This document shows positions 7,003 through 49,651 of a stretch of DNA of 54,939 bases, one piece after another. Origin of the DNA: Candidatus Woesearchaeota archaeon. Its GTDB lineage: Archaea; Nanobdellota; Nanobdellia; SCGC-AAA011-G17; GW2011-AR20. The position numbers and the translations under genes were made by a program. The stretch lies in the NCBI GenBank assembly GCA_016203115.1, contig JACQNJ010000013.1, positions 1 through 54,939 on the forward strand, given 5' to 3'. The number at the start of each line of letters is the position of its first letter. Within the stretch, counting starts at the first letter, position 1. Under the pieces are notes generated by a model, which saw nothing but the letters and a program-made list of their open reading frames with translations, ran no database searches and was not told the origin of the DNA.

Positions 7003-7733
7003 AAAAAGGATTTTTCTTTTCAATTGACAGCATTTTTGCTTTAATCTTATTTGGATTTGTTTTGGCTAATATTTATTCTTTTTTTCTTGTTTCTCATAAT
7101 ACAGACCAACAATTTTATTTTTCTGAAGACATGCTAAACATTTTTTCAAAAATTAAAATAAATGAGCTGGACCTGACAAAATATAATGAAATTCAAACAA
7201 TGATTGGAGATGGAAGAATTAAGAACCAGAAAAATACATTATTAGAGCAGGTAGTTATTTTCAGGGAAAAAGAGGGGGATACCAGCCCTAATGCCCAGTT
7301 GTTTGTTCAAGATGTTACAAAAGGATTAATTCCTGAACAATATGGCTTTTCTATTGATATTAATGGAGAGGTTTTTAAGAAAAGCAAAGAAGTAACAACA
7401 TTGATTTCCAGAGAAAGGTTAACTTTTGGAGAAAGTTCTACCTGTGCTGCTGAAACTGAAACTTGCAATGGTGTGGATGATGATTGTGATGGGACTATAG
7501 ATAATGGAGTAAAAAATGCCTGCGGCGGCTGTGGTGTTATAACTGGAGGCACACCTTCTAATACCTGTGATGGTGCAGATACTGACTCATGTGAGGAAGG
7601 TACATGGAACTGTAATGCTGTAAAAACAAATACCTTTTGTAGTGATAACACAGGAAACATAGCTGAGATTTGTGATGATGGTATTGATAATAATTGTGAT
7701 GGAAGTACTGATGAAGGTTGTGGAGGAGTTTAA
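6999..7733 (+). CDS. Pilin-like membrane protein with MopE-type metal-binding tail
   Basis: 244 aa. The N-terminus MKKGFFFSIDSIFALIL leads into one hydrophobic helix (~8-30), as in archaeal pseudopilins. A ~115-residue soluble domain ends at FGESSTC. The last ~95 residues are MopE-type motifs (ETCNGVDDDCDGTIDNG, a CGGCG loop, and EICDDGIDNNCDGSTDEG), as in the adhesin. This fuses a pilus-like anchor to the adhesin's repeat type. The following remnant at 7734-7862 shows that a relative without this tail once ended right after FGE(N). It is probably a surface or pilus-tip component working with the adhesin. Confidence 0.6.
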   Translation: MKKGFFFSIDSIFALILFGFVLANIYSFFLVSHNTDQQFYFSEDMLNIFSKIKINELDLTKYNEIQTMIGDGRIKNQKNTLLEQVVIFREKEGDTSPNAQLFVQDVTKGLIPEQYGFSIDINGEVFKKSKEVTTLISRERLTFGESSTCAAETETCNGVDDDCDGTIDNGVKNACGGCGVITGGTPSNTCDGADTDSCEEGTWNCNAVKTNTFCSDNTGNIAEICDDGIDNNCDGSTDEGCGGV

Positions 7734-9520: not shown

Positions 9521-11309
9521 ATCTCGGCCTGTTTCTTTGCTGATCAGGATTTGTATTTTTCATAATCTGCTCTCTAAACTGTTTTGCCTCCTCAGGATGG
9601 ATTTCCCGGCCAAAAGACCTTTTTCCTGTTGACTGCATTTTTTGCTGCTGTAATCTCTCCTTGAATCTTTTTGCCTCTCTCCTTTCCCTTTCCCTCATTA
9701 ATTCCAAGCGATCCCTGCCCTTAATTTTTGTGAAGTAAAATCCAGCTACAAAGACTACTAGAATCAAGATCACAATAAGGTAGCCTAAAAGAACTCCCCC
9801 TTTGTCTCCAGCACCAACTACATTACCTGTTAATGGGCTTGCTAATTTGCTGAATATGTTTCTTTCATCTATTATAGTTACTTCGCCTAGGGAGATTTCT
9901 TTCTCTCCTACAAGCACTTTTAAGTCATAGGTCCCTGCCCTGTCTTGAAGATTAATAGATTTCACTTCATTGATTCCTATTCTTACCTTTTCAAATGAGC
10001 TTTCTGCTCCTGCTATTATTTCTGCTTCCCCATCAAATTTAACATTGCCTATGTTTTTAATGTACAAATTTGTGTTGTCAACTGTGGCTTCAAACTCTCT
10101 TTTCTCCCCTATCGAGAATTCATCTTCTTTGATTAAGTTTTTACTAGATGCCTTAACTCTAACTATTCCTGGGACTGTAAGTTCTGGAACAGTATAATCT
10201 AAGATGGCTGTACCTGTGGTCAATACCTCTCCTTTTGAACTGTAAACCTCTATTAAAGCTCCTCCAGCCATTTTGTCTCCTGCTTGGTCAGAGATTGAAC
10301 CTGTAATTGTTAATGTCTCTCCTGGAAGAACCTCTTCTTTGGGAATGTATAGCTCTATATTGGTTGGAACAGGAGTTATTCTATATGTAAATGACTTTTC
10401 TCCATAATTCCCAGATTTATCCTGAGCTATTACATTTAAAGTGTATTCTGCGCTCTTTACTGCTTTGCCTGTAAAGTAAGTATATGCAAAAGAGCCATCA
10501 GGAGCAACTGCTGCTGTATCTTCCCCTACTTTCACTTCTATATTTGAAGAATCAGATGCTTTCTTGTATTTTATTGTTCCTGTTAATTTTACTTCTTCTC
10601 CAGGCAACACTTCTGCTTTATCAAGATTTAAATCTATAGTTATTTCACCACTCACTTCAAAATCTGCTATACTTTTGAAGTACATCTCATTGCCATAAAT
10701 ATCAAGAACATTAAGATCTATTGTGTAATCTCCCTGAGGTATGCTTTCTGCCTTGTATGTGTAACTTATCTCACCACCGCTTAACTGGAGGTCATCTGTG
10801 TCTATTGTTTCGCCATTCTCTTTTTTGATATATACTACTGCACTGCCCTCTGCATTTACCTGGTTTAATCTTAAGACCTTTCCTGTCAATTTAACTGACT
10901 GGCCTAACTGGAGTACATTAGAATCTATTTTAAAATCGCCTTGCAGCTCATTTGTTACGTTAATCGTGCTAGTTGTTTTTTCTTCTATGCCTTTAATGCC
11001 AATTGTGAAATGACAGTCTCCTAAGCTTCCTTTACGGATTGTTAATTTTTCTGAAAAAAACTGCTCTTCATTGGCTTTTAAATCAACTATTTTTGCGATA
11101 AAAGGCGAGGAAGTAGATCCACATGTTAATTCTATAGTGAATATACCACTTGTATCTATTGTTGATACTAGCTTGCCATCAATGCTTACTGTATCCCCTA
11201 GATTGTATTTCTCCTTTAAAGATATGTCTCCCAACTCTACTATAGCACTAGCAACAGGTATTAACGATAATCCCAGCAACAAGAAAATGATGTACATCCT
11301 CTTTTTCAT
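9510..11309 (-). CDS. Secreted multi-Ig membrane protein with cytoplasmic basic tail
   Basis: 599 aa. A signal peptide (residues 1-22, ending VASA) is followed by five or more beta-sandwich domains of ~90 residues. They repeat phrases such as LPGEEVKLTGTIKYK, LPGETLTITGSI and LGQSVKLTGKVLRL. One helix at about residues 508-527 (GVLLGYLIVILILVVFVAGF) precedes a ~70-residue charged cytoplasmic tail rich in R/E/K/Q (DRLELMRERERREAKRFKER). It resembles invasin/macroglobulin MG2-like surface proteins. The tail could link the envelope to a cytoplasmic partner, which is inference. Confidence 0.65.
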   Translation of the reverse strand: MKKRMYIIFLLLGLSLIPVASAIVELGDISLKEKYNLGDTVSIDGKLVSTIDTSGIFTIELTCGSTSSPFIAKIVDLKANEEQFFSEKLTIRKGSLGDCHFTIGIKGIEEKTTSTINVTNELQGDFKIDSNVLQLGQSVKLTGKVLRLNQVNAEGSAVVYIKKENGETIDTDDLQLSGGEISYTYKAESIPQGDYTIDLNVLDIYGNEMYFKSIADFEVSGEITIDLNLDKAEVLPGEEVKLTGTIKYKKASDSSNIEVKVGEDTAAVAPDGSFAYTYFTGKAVKSAEYTLNVIAQDKSGNYGEKSFTYRITPVPTNIELYIPKEEVLPGETLTITGSISDQAGDKMAGGALIEVYSSKGEVLTTGTAILDYTVPELTVPGIVRVKASSKNLIKEDEFSIGEKREFEATVDNTNLYIKNIGNVKFDGEAEIIAGAESSFEKVRIGINEVKSINLQDRAGTYDLKVLVGEKEISLGEVTIIDERNIFSKLASPLTGNVVGAGDKGGVLLGYLIVILILVVFVAGFYFTKIKGRDRLELMRERERREAKRFKERLQQQKMQSTGKRSFGREIHPEEAKQFREQIMKNTNPDQQRNRPRSIF

Positions 11310-11877: not shown

Positions 11878-13608
11878 ATGGGCAGTTCGATTGAATCACT
11901 AAGGCATTCCACATCTCACATTTTAGCTGCTGCTGTAAAAAAATTATACCCTAAAGTGCAGTTGGCTATAGGGCCTGCTGTTGAAAATGGATTTTATTAT
12001 GATTTTGGTAATTTAAAAATTAGTGAAGAAGATTTGATTAAAATAGAAGAAGAAATGAGAAATATTTTGAAGAAAGATTTAAGCTTTAAAAAAGAAAAAG
12101 TGAGTAAAGCTGATGCCAGAAAAAGGCTAAAAGATCAACCGTATAAAATTGAATTATTGAATGATATTAAAGGAGATATTAATTTTTGCAAGACTGGAGA
12201 TGTTTTTGAAGATTTGTGCTCTGGACCGCATGTTAACTCCACTTCTGAGATTAAGCATTTTAAATTATTAAGAATAGCGGGAGCTTACTGGAAAGGAGAT
12301 TCCAATAATGTGATGTTAACCAGGATTTATGGAACTGCTTTTCCTTCCAAAAAAGAACTGGATGAATATTTGAAACAGCTAGAAGAAGCTGAAAAAAGAA
12401 ACCATATCAAATTGGGAAAAGAACTTGGAATTTTTATGATTTCTGATCTTGTAGGGAAAGGGTTACCTATTTGGCTGCCTAAAGGAAACATCATTAAAGA
12501 AGAGGTTGAAAAACTAGCTAAGGAGAAAGAGGAAAAAGCTGGTTATGTTAGAGTGACAACCCCACATTTAGCTAAAAAAGAATTATACTTGAAATCAGGA
12601 CACTTGCCTTATTATCAAGAAAATATGTATCCTGCAATGAAAATGGATGATGGAGAGTATTATTTGAAAGCAATGAATTGCCCCCATCATCATTTGATAT
12701 TTAAACATTCTTTAAGAAGTTATAGAGACTTGCCTTTAAGAATTGCAGAATATGGAACTTGCTACAGAAATGAATTGTCTGGGACTTTAGCTGGACTTTT
12801 AAGAGTGAGAATGCTTGAAATGAATGATGCTCATATTTACTGCACTAAAGAGCAGATAGAGGAAGAGTTTACTAATGTGATAAGATTAGTCCAAGAATAT
12901 TACAAAATATTTAATTTAGAAAATTATTGGTTTAGATTATCTAAATGGAATCCTAAGAACAAAGAGAAATACATTAATGAGCCTAAAAACTGGGAATATT
13001 GTGAAGATGTTTTGAGAAGAGTTTTGAAAAAATTAAAAGTTAAATTTATTGAAGCTGATGATGAAGCTACATTTTATGGACCTAAGATTGATATTCAATT
13101 TAAAGCAGTTACTGGAAGAGAAGAGACTATGTCTACAATTCAATTAGATTTTGCTGCTAAAGAAAGATTTGAACTGTTTTATCAGGACAAAGATGGAAAA
13201 ATGAATAATGATGTGTTTGTTATACACAGAGCTCCTTTGTCAACCCATGAAAGATTTATGGCATTCTTGATTGAACACTATTCTGGGAATTTCCCATTGT
13301 GGCTAAATCCTGTACAAGTAAAAATTGTTACTGTTAATGATTCAAACTTGAAATATGCTAATGAATTTGTTAAATTGCTTAGAGACAATAATATTAGAGT
13401 TGAACTAGATGACAGAACTGAGTCTATTTCTAAAAAGATCAGGGATGCTGAGGTTGAAAAAGCTTCTTTGATTGTTACTATAGGGAATAAAGAAGTTGAA
13501 AATAAAACTTTGGCTATCAGAGACAAAGATGGCAAGGTTAAATTTGGATTGAAAGTTGAAGATTTTTTGAAAACTTTAGTTGAGGATATCAAACTTAGAA
13601 GATGCTAG
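11878..13608 (+). CDS. thrS: Threonyl-tRNA synthetase, bacterial type without TGS domain
   Basis: 576 aa against ~640 in E. coli; the N-terminal TGS domain is missing. It charges tRNA-Thr with threonine. The bacterial-type N2 editing domain starts at once: H10 and H14 (HSTSH), C114 and H118 (CSGPH) match the zinc-like editing site that removes Ser. The class II catalytic core has motif 2-like CYRNE and zinc Cys268 (MNCPHHH), motif 3 near FVIHRAPLSTHERF and a C-terminal anticodon-binding domain (ELDDRTESISKKIRDAE). Most euryarchaea instead carry a D-aminoacyl-deacylase-like editing domain, so this gene suggests bacterial ancestry. Its 3' end overlaps the next ATG by 7 nt. Confidence 0.95.
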   Translation: MGSSIESLRHSTSHILAAAVKKLYPKVQLAIGPAVENGFYYDFGNLKISEEDLIKIEEEMRNILKKDLSFKKEKVSKADARKRLKDQPYKIELLNDIKGDINFCKTGDVFEDLCSGPHVNSTSEIKHFKLLRIAGAYWKGDSNNVMLTRIYGTAFPSKKELDEYLKQLEEAEKRNHIKLGKELGIFMISDLVGKGLPIWLPKGNIIKEEVEKLAKEKEEKAGYVRVTTPHLAKKELYLKSGHLPYYQENMYPAMKMDDGEYYLKAMNCPHHHLIFKHSLRSYRDLPLRIAEYGTCYRNELSGTLAGLLRVRMLEMNDAHIYCTKEQIEEEFTNVIRLVQEYYKIFNLENYWFRLSKWNPKNKEKYINEPKNWEYCEDVLRRVLKKLKVKFIEADDEATFYGPKIDIQFKAVTGREETMSTIQLDFAAKERFELFYQDKDGKMNNDVFVIHRAPLSTHERFMAFLIEHYSGNFPLWLNPVQVKIVTVNDSNLKYANEFVKLLRDNNIRVELDDRTESISKKIRDAEVEKASLIVTIGNKEVENKTLAIRDKDGKVKFGLKVEDFLKTLVEDIKLRRC

Positions 13609-39701: not shown

Positions 39702-39721
39702 CCTCACACTGAAGTATGGGG
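39702..39721 (-). other. Imperfect hairpin at the TnpB 3' end (element right end / omega RNA)
   Basis: CCTCACAC and GTATGGGG pair with one mismatch and one T-G pair around a TGAA loop. It spans the tnpB stop (39704-39706). In IS605-type elements the 3' end of tnpB overlaps the omega RNA, whose last hairpin borders the right end and whose guide is the flanking DNA. If so, the guide would be the sequence just below 39700. Confidence 0.4.
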
Positions 39722-40864
39722 CTTTACGCTTTTGTGTTGATTATCCCTGAACTCAGTCGCAATTCCAAAAATGGCTTTGACATCATCACTCGGAATGTAC
39801 GGCTCTGTTACAGAAGCCGAAATACCCTTGCATATAGCAGGATATTTAGCAAGATTAAAACTTGCGTTTAAATCAGAGTTGAGGTTATAATTACAATGAA
39901 GGCAAGTAAACAAGTGTCTAATGCGAGAGCCAATATTTCCGCATCTGGAGCAGATTTGAGAGGTACGAAAAGGATTAACTTTAATCACATAAATTCCTTT
40001 TCTGTTAGCCTTGTAGGTAATGAATCTTTGCAGTTGATAGAAACTCCAGTTGTTAATCCAGTAGTTGAATCTTTTTCCTCTCTTACTTCTCCTGATTCCC
40101 TTCAGGTTTTCCATTACAATAGTTCCTTCTGCAATACTATCAACAATCTGTTTACTGACATTGTGGTTTATCCAAGCCTTGAAACGTCTCTCTCTTCCAG
40201 ACCATTTCATGAGAAGCTTTCTGGAAGACCGAGTGCCTTTGGCTTGAAGCTTTTTCCTCAATCTCTTGAACTTGAGCATTTTAGTTTTGATAGTACTGCC
40301 CCTGAAGAATTTTTTATCAGAGGTAACAGCCATATGATTCATTCCGACATCAACACCAACTTTCCTGTTGCTACAAGTGTTGATGTTGACGTCTTTGGAA
40401 AATGCGATATGAATAAACATTCTTTGCTTTTTATCAAGAAGAACCTGAGCAGTCTGCCAAGACCAGTCAAGGTATTTAACGTAATATTCAGGGATCTTGA
40501 TAGGGATATCTACTCTTCCGTTTACTGTAGTTACTCTAACTTTATCAGGAGTGAATGCAAAAGTTCTCTTGTCAAAGTCAAGAGGCATGTATCTTCTATA
40601 TTCGGGCTTAGATCCTCTCGTAGTATTTATACTCTTGAGGTTCTGGGAAGCTACTCTAATGGCATTTATAATATATTGAGATGGCAATTTAAATTTCTTT
40701 CTGGTTTTATGATAACCAAGATGGTGAAGGTCATATCTTTTATGAGTATTGGTTTTAAAACCCATGTCAGAGATGTAAGAAATAGCTTTGGAATATTCCT
40801 TCATGGACTTAACAAGAAGTTCATTATAGGGGATTTTCAGTTTTATTGTAGCAACAGATTTCAC
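39704..40864 (-). CDS. tnpB: TnpB, RNA-guided endonuclease of an IS605-type element
   Basis: 386 aa, full length. The RuvC catalytic triad is intact: D172 in VGVDVGMNHMAV, E252 in IVMENLKGI, and the last Asp in NLNSDLNAS. The zinc finger is CSRCGN and CLHCNYN. The start is GTG 40864. No TnpA (Y1 transposase) accompanies it, so it is a solo element. TnpB cuts DNA next to a TAM under guidance of an RNA from the element end. It lies between the coiled-coil gene and dedA without disrupting either; an AAATTATTTAAAAT promoter lies upstream. Confidence 0.93.
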   Translation of the reverse strand: MKSVATIKLKIPYNELLVKSMKEYSKAISYISDMGFKTNTHKRYDLHHLGYHKTRKKFKLPSQYIINAIRVASQNLKSINTTRGSKPEYRRYMPLDFDKRTFAFTPDKVRVTTVNGRVDIPIKIPEYYVKYLDWSWQTAQVLLDKKQRMFIHIAFSKDVNINTCSNRKVGVDVGMNHMAVTSDKKFFRGSTIKTKMLKFKRLRKKLQAKGTRSSRKLLMKWSGRERRFKAWINHNVSKQIVDSIAEGTIVMENLKGIRRSKRGKRFNYWINNWSFYQLQRFITYKANRKGIYVIKVNPFRTSQICSRCGNIGSRIRHLFTCLHCNYNLNSDLNASFNLAKYPAICKGISASVTEPYIPSDDVKAIFGIATEFRDNQHKSVKPHTSV

Positions 40865-48875: not shown

Positions 48876-48884
48876 TTTAAGTAA

Positions 48885-48967
48885 GGGCACAGCAGGATTT
48901 TCGTTGAATTTCGAACCTGCGATAGTCGCTCTGCAGGCGACTGCCTTAACCGCTTGGCGATGTGCCC
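48885..48967 (-). tRNA. tRNA-Cys(GCA) with a 12-nt T-loop intron
   Basis: 83 nt on the minus strand. Acceptor GGGCACA/TGTGCCC, D stem GCC/GGC, anticodon stem GTCGC/GCGAC with loop CTGCAGA (anticodon GCA), T stem GCAGG/CCTGC. The next base is T, the U73 discriminator expected for tRNA-Cys. The T loop is 19 nt instead of 7. Removing the 12 nt at 48898-48909 leaves TTCGAAT, the normal T loop, and a 71-nt tRNA. CCA is not encoded. Confidence 0.9.
48898..48909 (-). other. tRNA-Cys intron, 12 nt at position 59/60
   Basis: The exon TTCG pairs with intron CGAA to form a 4-bp helix flanked by two 3-nt bulges (AAA and AAT), a bulge-helix-bulge motif. Cutting each bulge after its second base, the archaeal rule, removes ATTCAACGAAAA. 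Confidence 0.75.
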
Positions 48968-49049: not shown

Positions 49050-49388
49050 CTACCAATACTTACCGTCATAAAGTCTCCTTGAAGATCTGGACCTTCGATG
49101 TTTTGGCTTAATTTTGCCGTCTATCCCAACTCTATCTTCTATTGTGAGATTGTCCTTAACTCTTATACTTCTGAATCTTAAATGACCCATAACTTTCTTC
49201 CTTGATTTACTTGTACCATGACCATTTAAACCATATACAGTAATTTTTCCTTTAGAATCCACTCCCCTATCTGTGTAGATTATAGGAACGACAGCATAAA
49301 AATAGCCCATGGTACGTTTATGATCATAAAATAACATGACTGGGCCAGCTACTGTACCTTTCTCAGCGTTATCATAGTATTGTTTCAT
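49050..49388 (-). CDS. Small basic hypothetical protein between two tRNA genes
   Basis: 112 aa from ATG 49388; a longer upstream reading would start within the tRNA-Arg gene and was rejected. Unrecognised. A beta-rich first half (GTVAGPVMLFYDHKRTMGYF, YAVVPIIYTDRG) is followed by a strongly basic end (GKIKPKHRRSRSSRRLYDGK) that could bind RNA. It starts 48 nt after tRNA-Arg and ends ~80 nt before tRNA-Cys on the same strand. Confidence 0.5.
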   Translation of the reverse strand: MKQYYDNAEKGTVAGPVMLFYDHKRTMGYFYAVVPIIYTDRGVDSKGKITVYGLNGHGTSKSRKKVMGHLRFRSIRVKDNLTIEDRVGIDGKIKPKHRRSRSSRRLYDGKYW

Positions 49389-49449
49389 TATAATATTCGT
49401 TAAAATATAAAAAAGATTAAAAATATATTGAAATGCGGGCCCGATGGGA

Positions 49450-49461
49450 TTTTCATTGAAT
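49450..49461 (-). other. tRNA-Arg intron 3, 12 nt at position 59/60
   Basis: Same place, length and layout as the tRNA-Cys intron. Here the exon TTCA pairs with intron TGAA: compared with tRNA-Cys, G57 became A and its intron partner C became T, so the helix is kept by a compensatory change. Confidence 0.75.
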
Positions 49462-49492
49462 TTTGAACCCACGACCTACAGCTTAGAAGGCT

Positions 49493-49513
49493 CTAGCGAG
49501 ACAATACTCTCTT
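49493..49513 (-). other. tRNA-Arg intron 2, 21 nt at position 28/29
   Basis: Exon GGCG pairs with intron CGCT (one G-U). Bulges ACA and AGA flank the helix, and cutting after their second base joins AC to AGC, giving the 5' anticodon strand ACAGC that pairs with GCTGT. AGA/TCT forms a short inner stem. Confidence 0.65.
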
Positions 49514-49534
49514 GTCGCCCTATCCAGGCTAGGC

Positions 49535-49550
49535 TTCCCGATATAACGTA
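49535..49550 (-). other. tRNA-Arg intron 1, 16 nt at position 9/10
   Basis: The exon CCCG at the end of the 5' acceptor strand pairs with intron CGGG. Bulges TAT and AAG flank the helix; cutting after their second base joins U8-A9 to the D stem GCCT. Confidence 0.65.
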
Positions 49551-49651
49551 TACGGGCCCAGTTAGAAAGCTGGTCTTTAGCCCACATTCATAAAATAAAC
49601 AATATATCAGCTTTAAAAAACTTTTTAAATGGAGCTAAAAATTAAAAGAAG

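Follow-up and report, generated by a model that had tools for sequence, protein, structure and literature searches.

A woesearchaeal tRNA-Arg(UCU) gene with three short introns at 9/10, 28/29 and 59/60 within an intron-rich tRNA set

The tRNA-Arg(UCU) locus and its host genome

The window, a stretch of 54,939 nucleotides, carries on its minus strand a tRNA-Arg(UCU) gene whose four exons are separated by three short introns (Table 1). The segments follow one another at 49436-49559 in the order exon 1, intron 1, exon 2, intron 2, exon 3, intron 3 and exon 4. The joined exons make a 75-nt tRNA in which 21 of 21 stem pairs form, two of them as G.U (13-22 and 49-65), and which keeps the invariant T8, A14, G18, G19, A21, T33, T54, T55, C56 and A58. 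A first-pass annotation had described a perfect tRNA of 74 nt; the cloverleaf stands, and the length is corrected to 75 nt including G73, which adds position 49436. The spliced form is called tRNA-Arg(tct) by ARAGORN, while the unspliced DNA gives zero matches with either ARAGORN or Rfam, so that ordinary finders do miss this gene, as had been anticipated. A split or permuted tRNA is ruled out by the four exons being collinear within 124 nt, and group I introns are ruled out by intron lengths of 12-21 nt. An ORF at 49050-49472 (minus strand), with no Pfam match, has a GTG start inside the tRNA-Arg gene; an ATG near 49388 is its likelier true start.

Table 1. Positions of the two tRNA genes and of their exons and introns in the window
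Feature	Coordinates	Strand	Description	Sequence	Basis
tRNA-Arg(UCU) precursor	49436..49559	minus	124 nt, G1 to discriminator G73		Best parse of the solver; ARAGORN on the spliced form
Arg(UCU) exon 1	49551..49559	minus	Positions 1-9	GGGCCCGTA	ARAGORN, solver
Arg(UCU) intron 1	49535..49550	minus	16 nt, site 9/10	TACGTTATATCGGGAA	Solver, relatives
Arg(UCU) exon 2	49514..49534	minus	Positions 10-28	GCCTAGCCTGGATAGGGCGAC	ARAGORN, solver
Arg(UCU) intron 2	49493..49513	minus	21 nt, site 28/29	AAGAGAGTATTGTCTCGCTAG	Solver, relatives
Arg(UCU) exon 3	49462..49492	minus	Positions 29-59; anticodon UCU at 49485-49487	AGCCTTCTAAGCTGTAGGTCGTGGGTTCAAA	
Arg(UCU) intron 3	49450..49461	minus	12 nt, site 59/60 in the T-loop	ATTCAATGAAAA	Solver, relatives
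Arg(UCU) exon 4	49436..49449	minus	Positions 60-73; CCA not encoded	TCCCATCGGGCCCG	
tRNA-Cys(GCA)	48884..48967	minus	One 12-nt intron at 59/60 (48898-48909)	ATTCAACGAAAA (intron)	

The tRNA-Cys gene lies ~470 bp beyond the tRNA-Arg gene. Its intron differs from the Arg 59/60 intron by one base, and the changed intron base pairs with a changed T-loop base (TTCG/CGAA in Cys versus TTCA/TGAA in Arg). Elsewhere in the window, an IS605-type TnpB-like protein with a Cas12f1-like TNB domain is encoded at 39704-40864 (minus strand).

The host genome (G000) is represented by 763 kb in 33 contigs and is 89% complete. Its threonyl-tRNA synthetase (11878-13608) has as best named relative the enzyme of Candidatus Woesearchaeota archaeon RIFCSPHIGHO2_02_FULL_32_10 (76% identity), in agreement with the DPANN-like host first proposed; the synthetase is of bacterial type, nearly all of its top relatives outside the Woesearchaeota are bacterial, and only the top match of this comparison informs taxonomy. 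On the basis of this match and of gene content, rather than of a tree, the genome belongs with the Woesearchaeota.

Intron motifs and tests of the parse

The parse was tested with a solver that may excise as many as three segments, at any place in the gene, provided that they fit a bulge-helix-bulge (BHB), and that then scores what is left as a tRNA. The three-intron parse is its best solution (57.25 versus 51.75 for the next best), so that an unbiased search recovers the same introns as the first-pass annotation, of 16, 21 and 12 nt at 9/10, 28/29 and 59/60, with none at 37/38. The proposed 4-bp helix between two 3-nt bulges is likewise borne out, with 4/4 pairs at all three junctions. In intron 1 the central helix CCCG/CGGG is accompanied by an outer helix of 5 bp, including two bases of the 5' leader, and an inner helix of 1 bp (hBH); in intron 2 the central helix GGCG/CGCT, with one G.U, has an inner helix of 3 bp and no outer helix (HBh'); and in intron 3 the central helix TTCA/TGAA has the T-stem as its outer helix and an inner helix of 1 bp (hBH). 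None of the three introns has the strict hBHBh' motif with inner and outer helices. All three motifs are of the relaxed type, a known subclass of archaeal tRNA intron motifs (PMC6379350).

A search space of three introns is permissive, and nothing more than this speaks for a chance alignment, in which a functionless string would merely resemble a tRNA. Such an alignment is extremely improbable, as none of 400 shuffles with fixed acceptor strands and a dinucleotide-shuffled interior comes near the score of the Arg(UCU) gene (maximum tRNA score 47 versus 57). A 4/4 central helix occurs with a frequency of 0.026 at random window positions and is found in 3/3 of the Arg(UCU) introns; at fixed boundaries, three such helices would be expected by chance at ~2e-5 (from 0.026 each). 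Also arguing against chance, a related genome (G009) has both the Arg and the Cys gene at the orthologous locus, with an identical 12-nt intron.

The tRNA gene set of the host

The Arg(UCU) gene is not an isolated oddity, since most tRNA genes of the host genome carry introns. The RF00005 model yields 25 candidates, and the window Arg gene is the 26th; this number is a lower bound, with Ser-like matches on contigs C29 and C3 left outside the tally. By solver and hand parsing, 4 of the 26 genes are intronless, 13 have one intron, 6 have two (Ser CGA, Leu UAG, Pro UGG, Lys UUU, initiator Met and Tyr) and 3 have three (Arg UCU, Phe GAA and Leu UAA), giving ~34 introns, 18 of them away from 37/38, in a count that includes a hand-read tRNA-His and some uncertain junctions in D-loops and variable loops. 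Published means are 0.84 introns per gene for Thermoproteales and 0.21 for archaea overall, and the record holder, P. calidifontis, has 71 introns in 46 genes (PMC8450103). The set described here is among the most intron-rich known.

Several of these genes are unusual in their own right. The tRNA-Phe(GAA) gene (L025; contig C3, near 7310-7460) has introns of 32 nt at 25/26, 17 nt at 37/38 and 29 nt in the variable loop. The tRNA-Leu(UAA) gene (L024; contig C7, near 60-245) has introns in the D-loop, at 30/31 and at 37/38 (47 nt), along with an A4-C69 mismatch in the acceptor stem. In the tRNA-Pro(UGG) gene (L016; contig C8, near 10290-10403) introns are found at 3/4 and 37/38, and the central helix of the former (TATG/CATA) extends into the 5' leader. 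ARAGORN calls the His gene L006 as Thr, the Gly(CCC) gene L009 as Trp and the Ser(CGA) gene L249 as Arg(tcg).

Arg(UCU) genes in related genomes

About 45 tRNA-Arg(UCU) genes were gathered from 103 genomes of the order, and the majority are intronless. Each of the three introns recurs alone in Arg(UCU) genes elsewhere in the order. The 9/10 intron is also present in G024 (L209), where the central helix shows a two-sided change (CTCG/CGAG versus CCCG/CGGG in the window), and the site is empty in G072 and G009. The 28/29 intron is shared, with a 4/4 central helix, by G058 (L208, AGCG/CGCT) and by G072 (L219, GGCG/CGCT), whose mature Arg(UCU) is nearly identical to that of the window and which carries this intron only. 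The 59/60 intron is the only one in the G009 gene (L213), where it is identical at 12 nt, and longer introns occupy this site in G004 (L271, 136 nt) and G090 (42 nt). All three introns together were found in none of the parsed relatives, which were collected with a pattern that does not detect genes interrupted between anticodon and T-arm. This distribution suggests that the introns have been gained and lost quickly within the family.

The comparison also bears on the exact position of the junctions. A one-base slide at 28/29 leaves the mature sequence unchanged, slides are possible at 59/60 as well, the 28/29 motif is without an outer helix, and the gene L211 parses as 29/30; one insertion, most likely that at 28/29, might therefore be removed at slightly shifted junctions such as 29/30, with no change in the mature RNA. 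This is rather unlikely, however, in that the 28/29 junction gives a 4/4 central helix in three genomes and the alternatives pair less well.

Four introns in orthologous tRNA-Cys genes

The pattern of the 12-nt intron at 59/60 is present in 3 of 102 genomes, twice in the window genome, twice in G009 and once in G001. In G009 the Arg and Cys genes stand in the same order ~940 bp apart, followed by an ASCH-domain ORF that reads as the same as the window ORF (Pfam on the window ORF). The G009 Cys gene (L297, 1396-1533) has four introns, at 15/16 (18 nt), 30/31 (22 nt), 37/38 (14 nt) and 59/60 (12 nt); once they are removed, the 72-nt mature sequence matches that of the window Cys exactly. The G001 Cys gene (L293, 1394-1533) likewise has four introns at 15/16, 30/31, 37/38 and 59/60; its mature form shows three base differences, two of which compensate each other in the acceptor stem. 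Counted over Arg and Cys, this locus holds 3+1 introns in the window genome versus 1+4 in G009, and introns therefore came and went within one family.

The published archaeal maximum is three introns per tRNA gene (PMC8450103, PMC4033280), and no case of an archaeal gene with four was found in the limited set of literature searched. As parsed from their sequences, the G009 and G001 Cys genes are one intron above this maximum.

Probable function and predicted splicing of the Arg(UCU) precursor

In 20 window ORFs, AGA (191) and AGG (100) together account for 291 of 303 arginine codons (96%). The other gene for this codon box, Arg(CCU) on L004, would under standard wobble rules decode AGG alone, and AGA decoding therefore rests on the Arg(UCU) gene. 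An intact second Arg(UCU) gene, which the first-pass annotation had named as the mark of a pseudogene, was looked for by pattern and BLAST in the 89%-complete assembly and was not found. One candidate for such a copy, L014, was ruled out, its orthologues (L249 and L256-L260) showing a tRNA-Ser(CGA) with introns at 30/31 and 37/38. As the sole Arg(UCU) gene found, serving a box that makes up 96% of arginine codons, the gene is thus very probably functional.

The main evidence against easy splicing of this precursor is its predicted folding, in an energy model that is without tertiary contacts, modifications or protein. In computed ensembles of the full precursor the 59/60 helix pairs at 0.84-0.93. 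In 5' prefixes of 32-70 nt, three of the four pairs in the central helix at 9/10 exceed 0.9, and the helix falls to ~0.003 or less once the 3' acceptor strand has been made. At no stage tested does the 28/29 helix of the window Arg gene rise above 0.02, and in the full precursor it is at ~0.003 or less; in G058 the corresponding helix reaches 0.45.

The absence of the 9/10 and 28/29 helices from the equilibrium fold, together with the 89% completeness of the genome, could be taken to indicate a decaying, unspliced pseudogene whose function is supplied by a different Arg(UCU) gene, located in the ~10% of the genome that is unassembled. Such a pseudogene is very unlikely when set against the intactness of all 21 stem pairs and invariant bases, the 4/4 central helices at three introns that are conserved or co-vary in relatives, and the occurrence of introns, including multiple ones, beside intact exons in most tRNA genes of the same genome, for example those for Phe(GAA), Tyr and initiator Met. 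One gene per anticodon, moreover, is usual for an archaeon of this size. The gene, its cloverleaf, its intron boundaries and central helices, and its uniqueness in the assembly are apparent at the level of the sequence, and it can be stated with high confidence that this is a functional and essential tRNA-Arg(UCU) gene of a woesearchaeal DPANN archaeon, with BHB introns at 9/10, 28/29 and 59/60.

In the functional gene, the splicing endonuclease EndA would cleave every bulge behind its second base, and the exons would be joined by RtcB. Intron 3 could be excised once the precursor has folded. Introns 1 and 2 occupy acceptor- and D-stem strands that the cloverleaf needs, and their removal therefore probably takes place while the transcript is still nascent, or depends on assisted refolding; the calculations suggest the former in the case of intron 1 and refolding assisted by the enzyme in that of intron 2.

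The splicing enzymes

A full-length gene for the RtcB exon ligase is present in the host genome (contig C13, 3949-5262; 554 bits). EndA was found neither with PF01974 nor with the EndA profile A1 in the 89%-complete assembly, and the organism's own EndA is presumably encoded in the unassembled part. A match to the EndA profile on contig C19 (E 0.001) lies outside any EndA reading frame and was set aside as chance; the ORF on C19 looks MazF/PemK-like by eye. Of 41 genomes searched, 37 have a single EndA, and the one other genome of the same genus in the set is among them.

The first-pass annotation had hinted at an epsilon2 or alpha-beta endonuclease, a suggestion that the relatives do not support, as they have one short, alpha4-like EndA. 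Their enzymes are 170-240 aa long, each has a single N and a single C domain, and the invariant Tyr122, His132 and Lys163 are present. The same-genus EndA matches the alpha4 enzyme of M. jannaschii (1a79) in length with no loop insertion (158 versus 158 residues), is ~10 residues shorter than the A. pernix alpha over an N-terminal stretch (81 versus 91), and was found to have no CSL/ASL-type loop insertion with a lysine. A second EndA copy or subunit was found in none of 11 relatives at E<=10, in a search that a short diverged beta would escape; the 96-aa beta of P. aerophilum is an example of such a subunit. Judged from its sequence, the relatives' EndA looks alpha4-like and of narrow specificity.

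Reviews reserve efficient cutting of relaxed motifs for the (alpha-beta)2 and epsilon2 enzymes (PMC6379350) and describe the nanoarchaeote Nst1 as having an alpha4 enzyme confined to canonical introns (PMC4033280). With relaxed introns and an alpha4-like EndA that lacks the loop, the lineage is therefore in tension with the rule that enzyme and introns co-evolve. The proposal that a lone woesearchaeal EndA of alpha4 type, with neither beta subunit nor CSL/ASL loop, splices many relaxed non-canonical introns, up to four per gene, is given an even chance and no better, because of the kind of beta that these searches would pass over. The absence of EndA from the assembly and the narrow type that the relatives' enzyme resembles also count against the functional reading of the Arg(UCU) gene preferred above.

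Comparison with known systems and implications

Multi-intron BHB tRNAs are already known from Crenarchaeota, N. equitans and ARMAN, and the published list of intron sites includes 59/60, 30/31 and even 3/4 (PMC4090602). A close parallel in pattern is with the Thermoproteales (Crenarchaeota), with up to three introns, which likewise have several short non-canonical BHB introns per gene, similar introns across different tRNAs and a high intron density, and which share introns at 3/4 with the Pro(UGG) gene of the present genome. The differences are that the host here is a woesearchaeal DPANN archaeon, that its relatives have a single short EndA rather than an (alpha-beta)2 enzyme with the Crenarchaea-specific loop, and that the related woesearchaeal Cys genes go beyond the stated maximum of three introns.

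Among DPANN archaea, ARMAN-1/2 (Micrarchaeota) likewise have non-canonical introns at several tRNA positions (PMC4033280), but the 170-240 aa EndA of the woesearchaeal relatives is unlike the ~390-aa three-unit epsilon protein of the epsilon2 enzyme. Nanoarchaeum equitans, also of the DPANN, provides in its alpha subunit the best PDB match of the woesearchaeal EndA (3iey_A); in contrast to its (alpha-beta)2 enzyme, no N. equitans-like beta subunit was found in the genomes searched. Nst1 apparently has the same alpha4 type of enzyme as the woesearchaeal relatives, yet its enzyme is described as canonical-only, whereas the woesearchaeal lineage is full of relaxed, non-canonical introns. No published account of such tRNA introns in the woesearchaeal lineage was found in the literature searched, and what appears to be new is the lineage, the intron density and the apparent mismatch with the enzyme. 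The four-intron Cys genes and the apparent alpha4-type enzyme would surprise a specialist.

ARAGORN missed or mis-called many of the genes described here, and thus tRNA inventories made with ordinary finders, and claims on codon use derived from them, are unreliable for such genomes. Intron-rich tRNA sets have been linked to a change of splicing enzyme. Here an uncultured order of DPANN archaea reaches a Thermoproteales-like intron density, with genes of three and four introns and quick gain and loss at orthologous sites, and yet has a narrow-looking enzyme; this points either to an error in the co-evolution rule or to a subunit or chaperone that is new to science.
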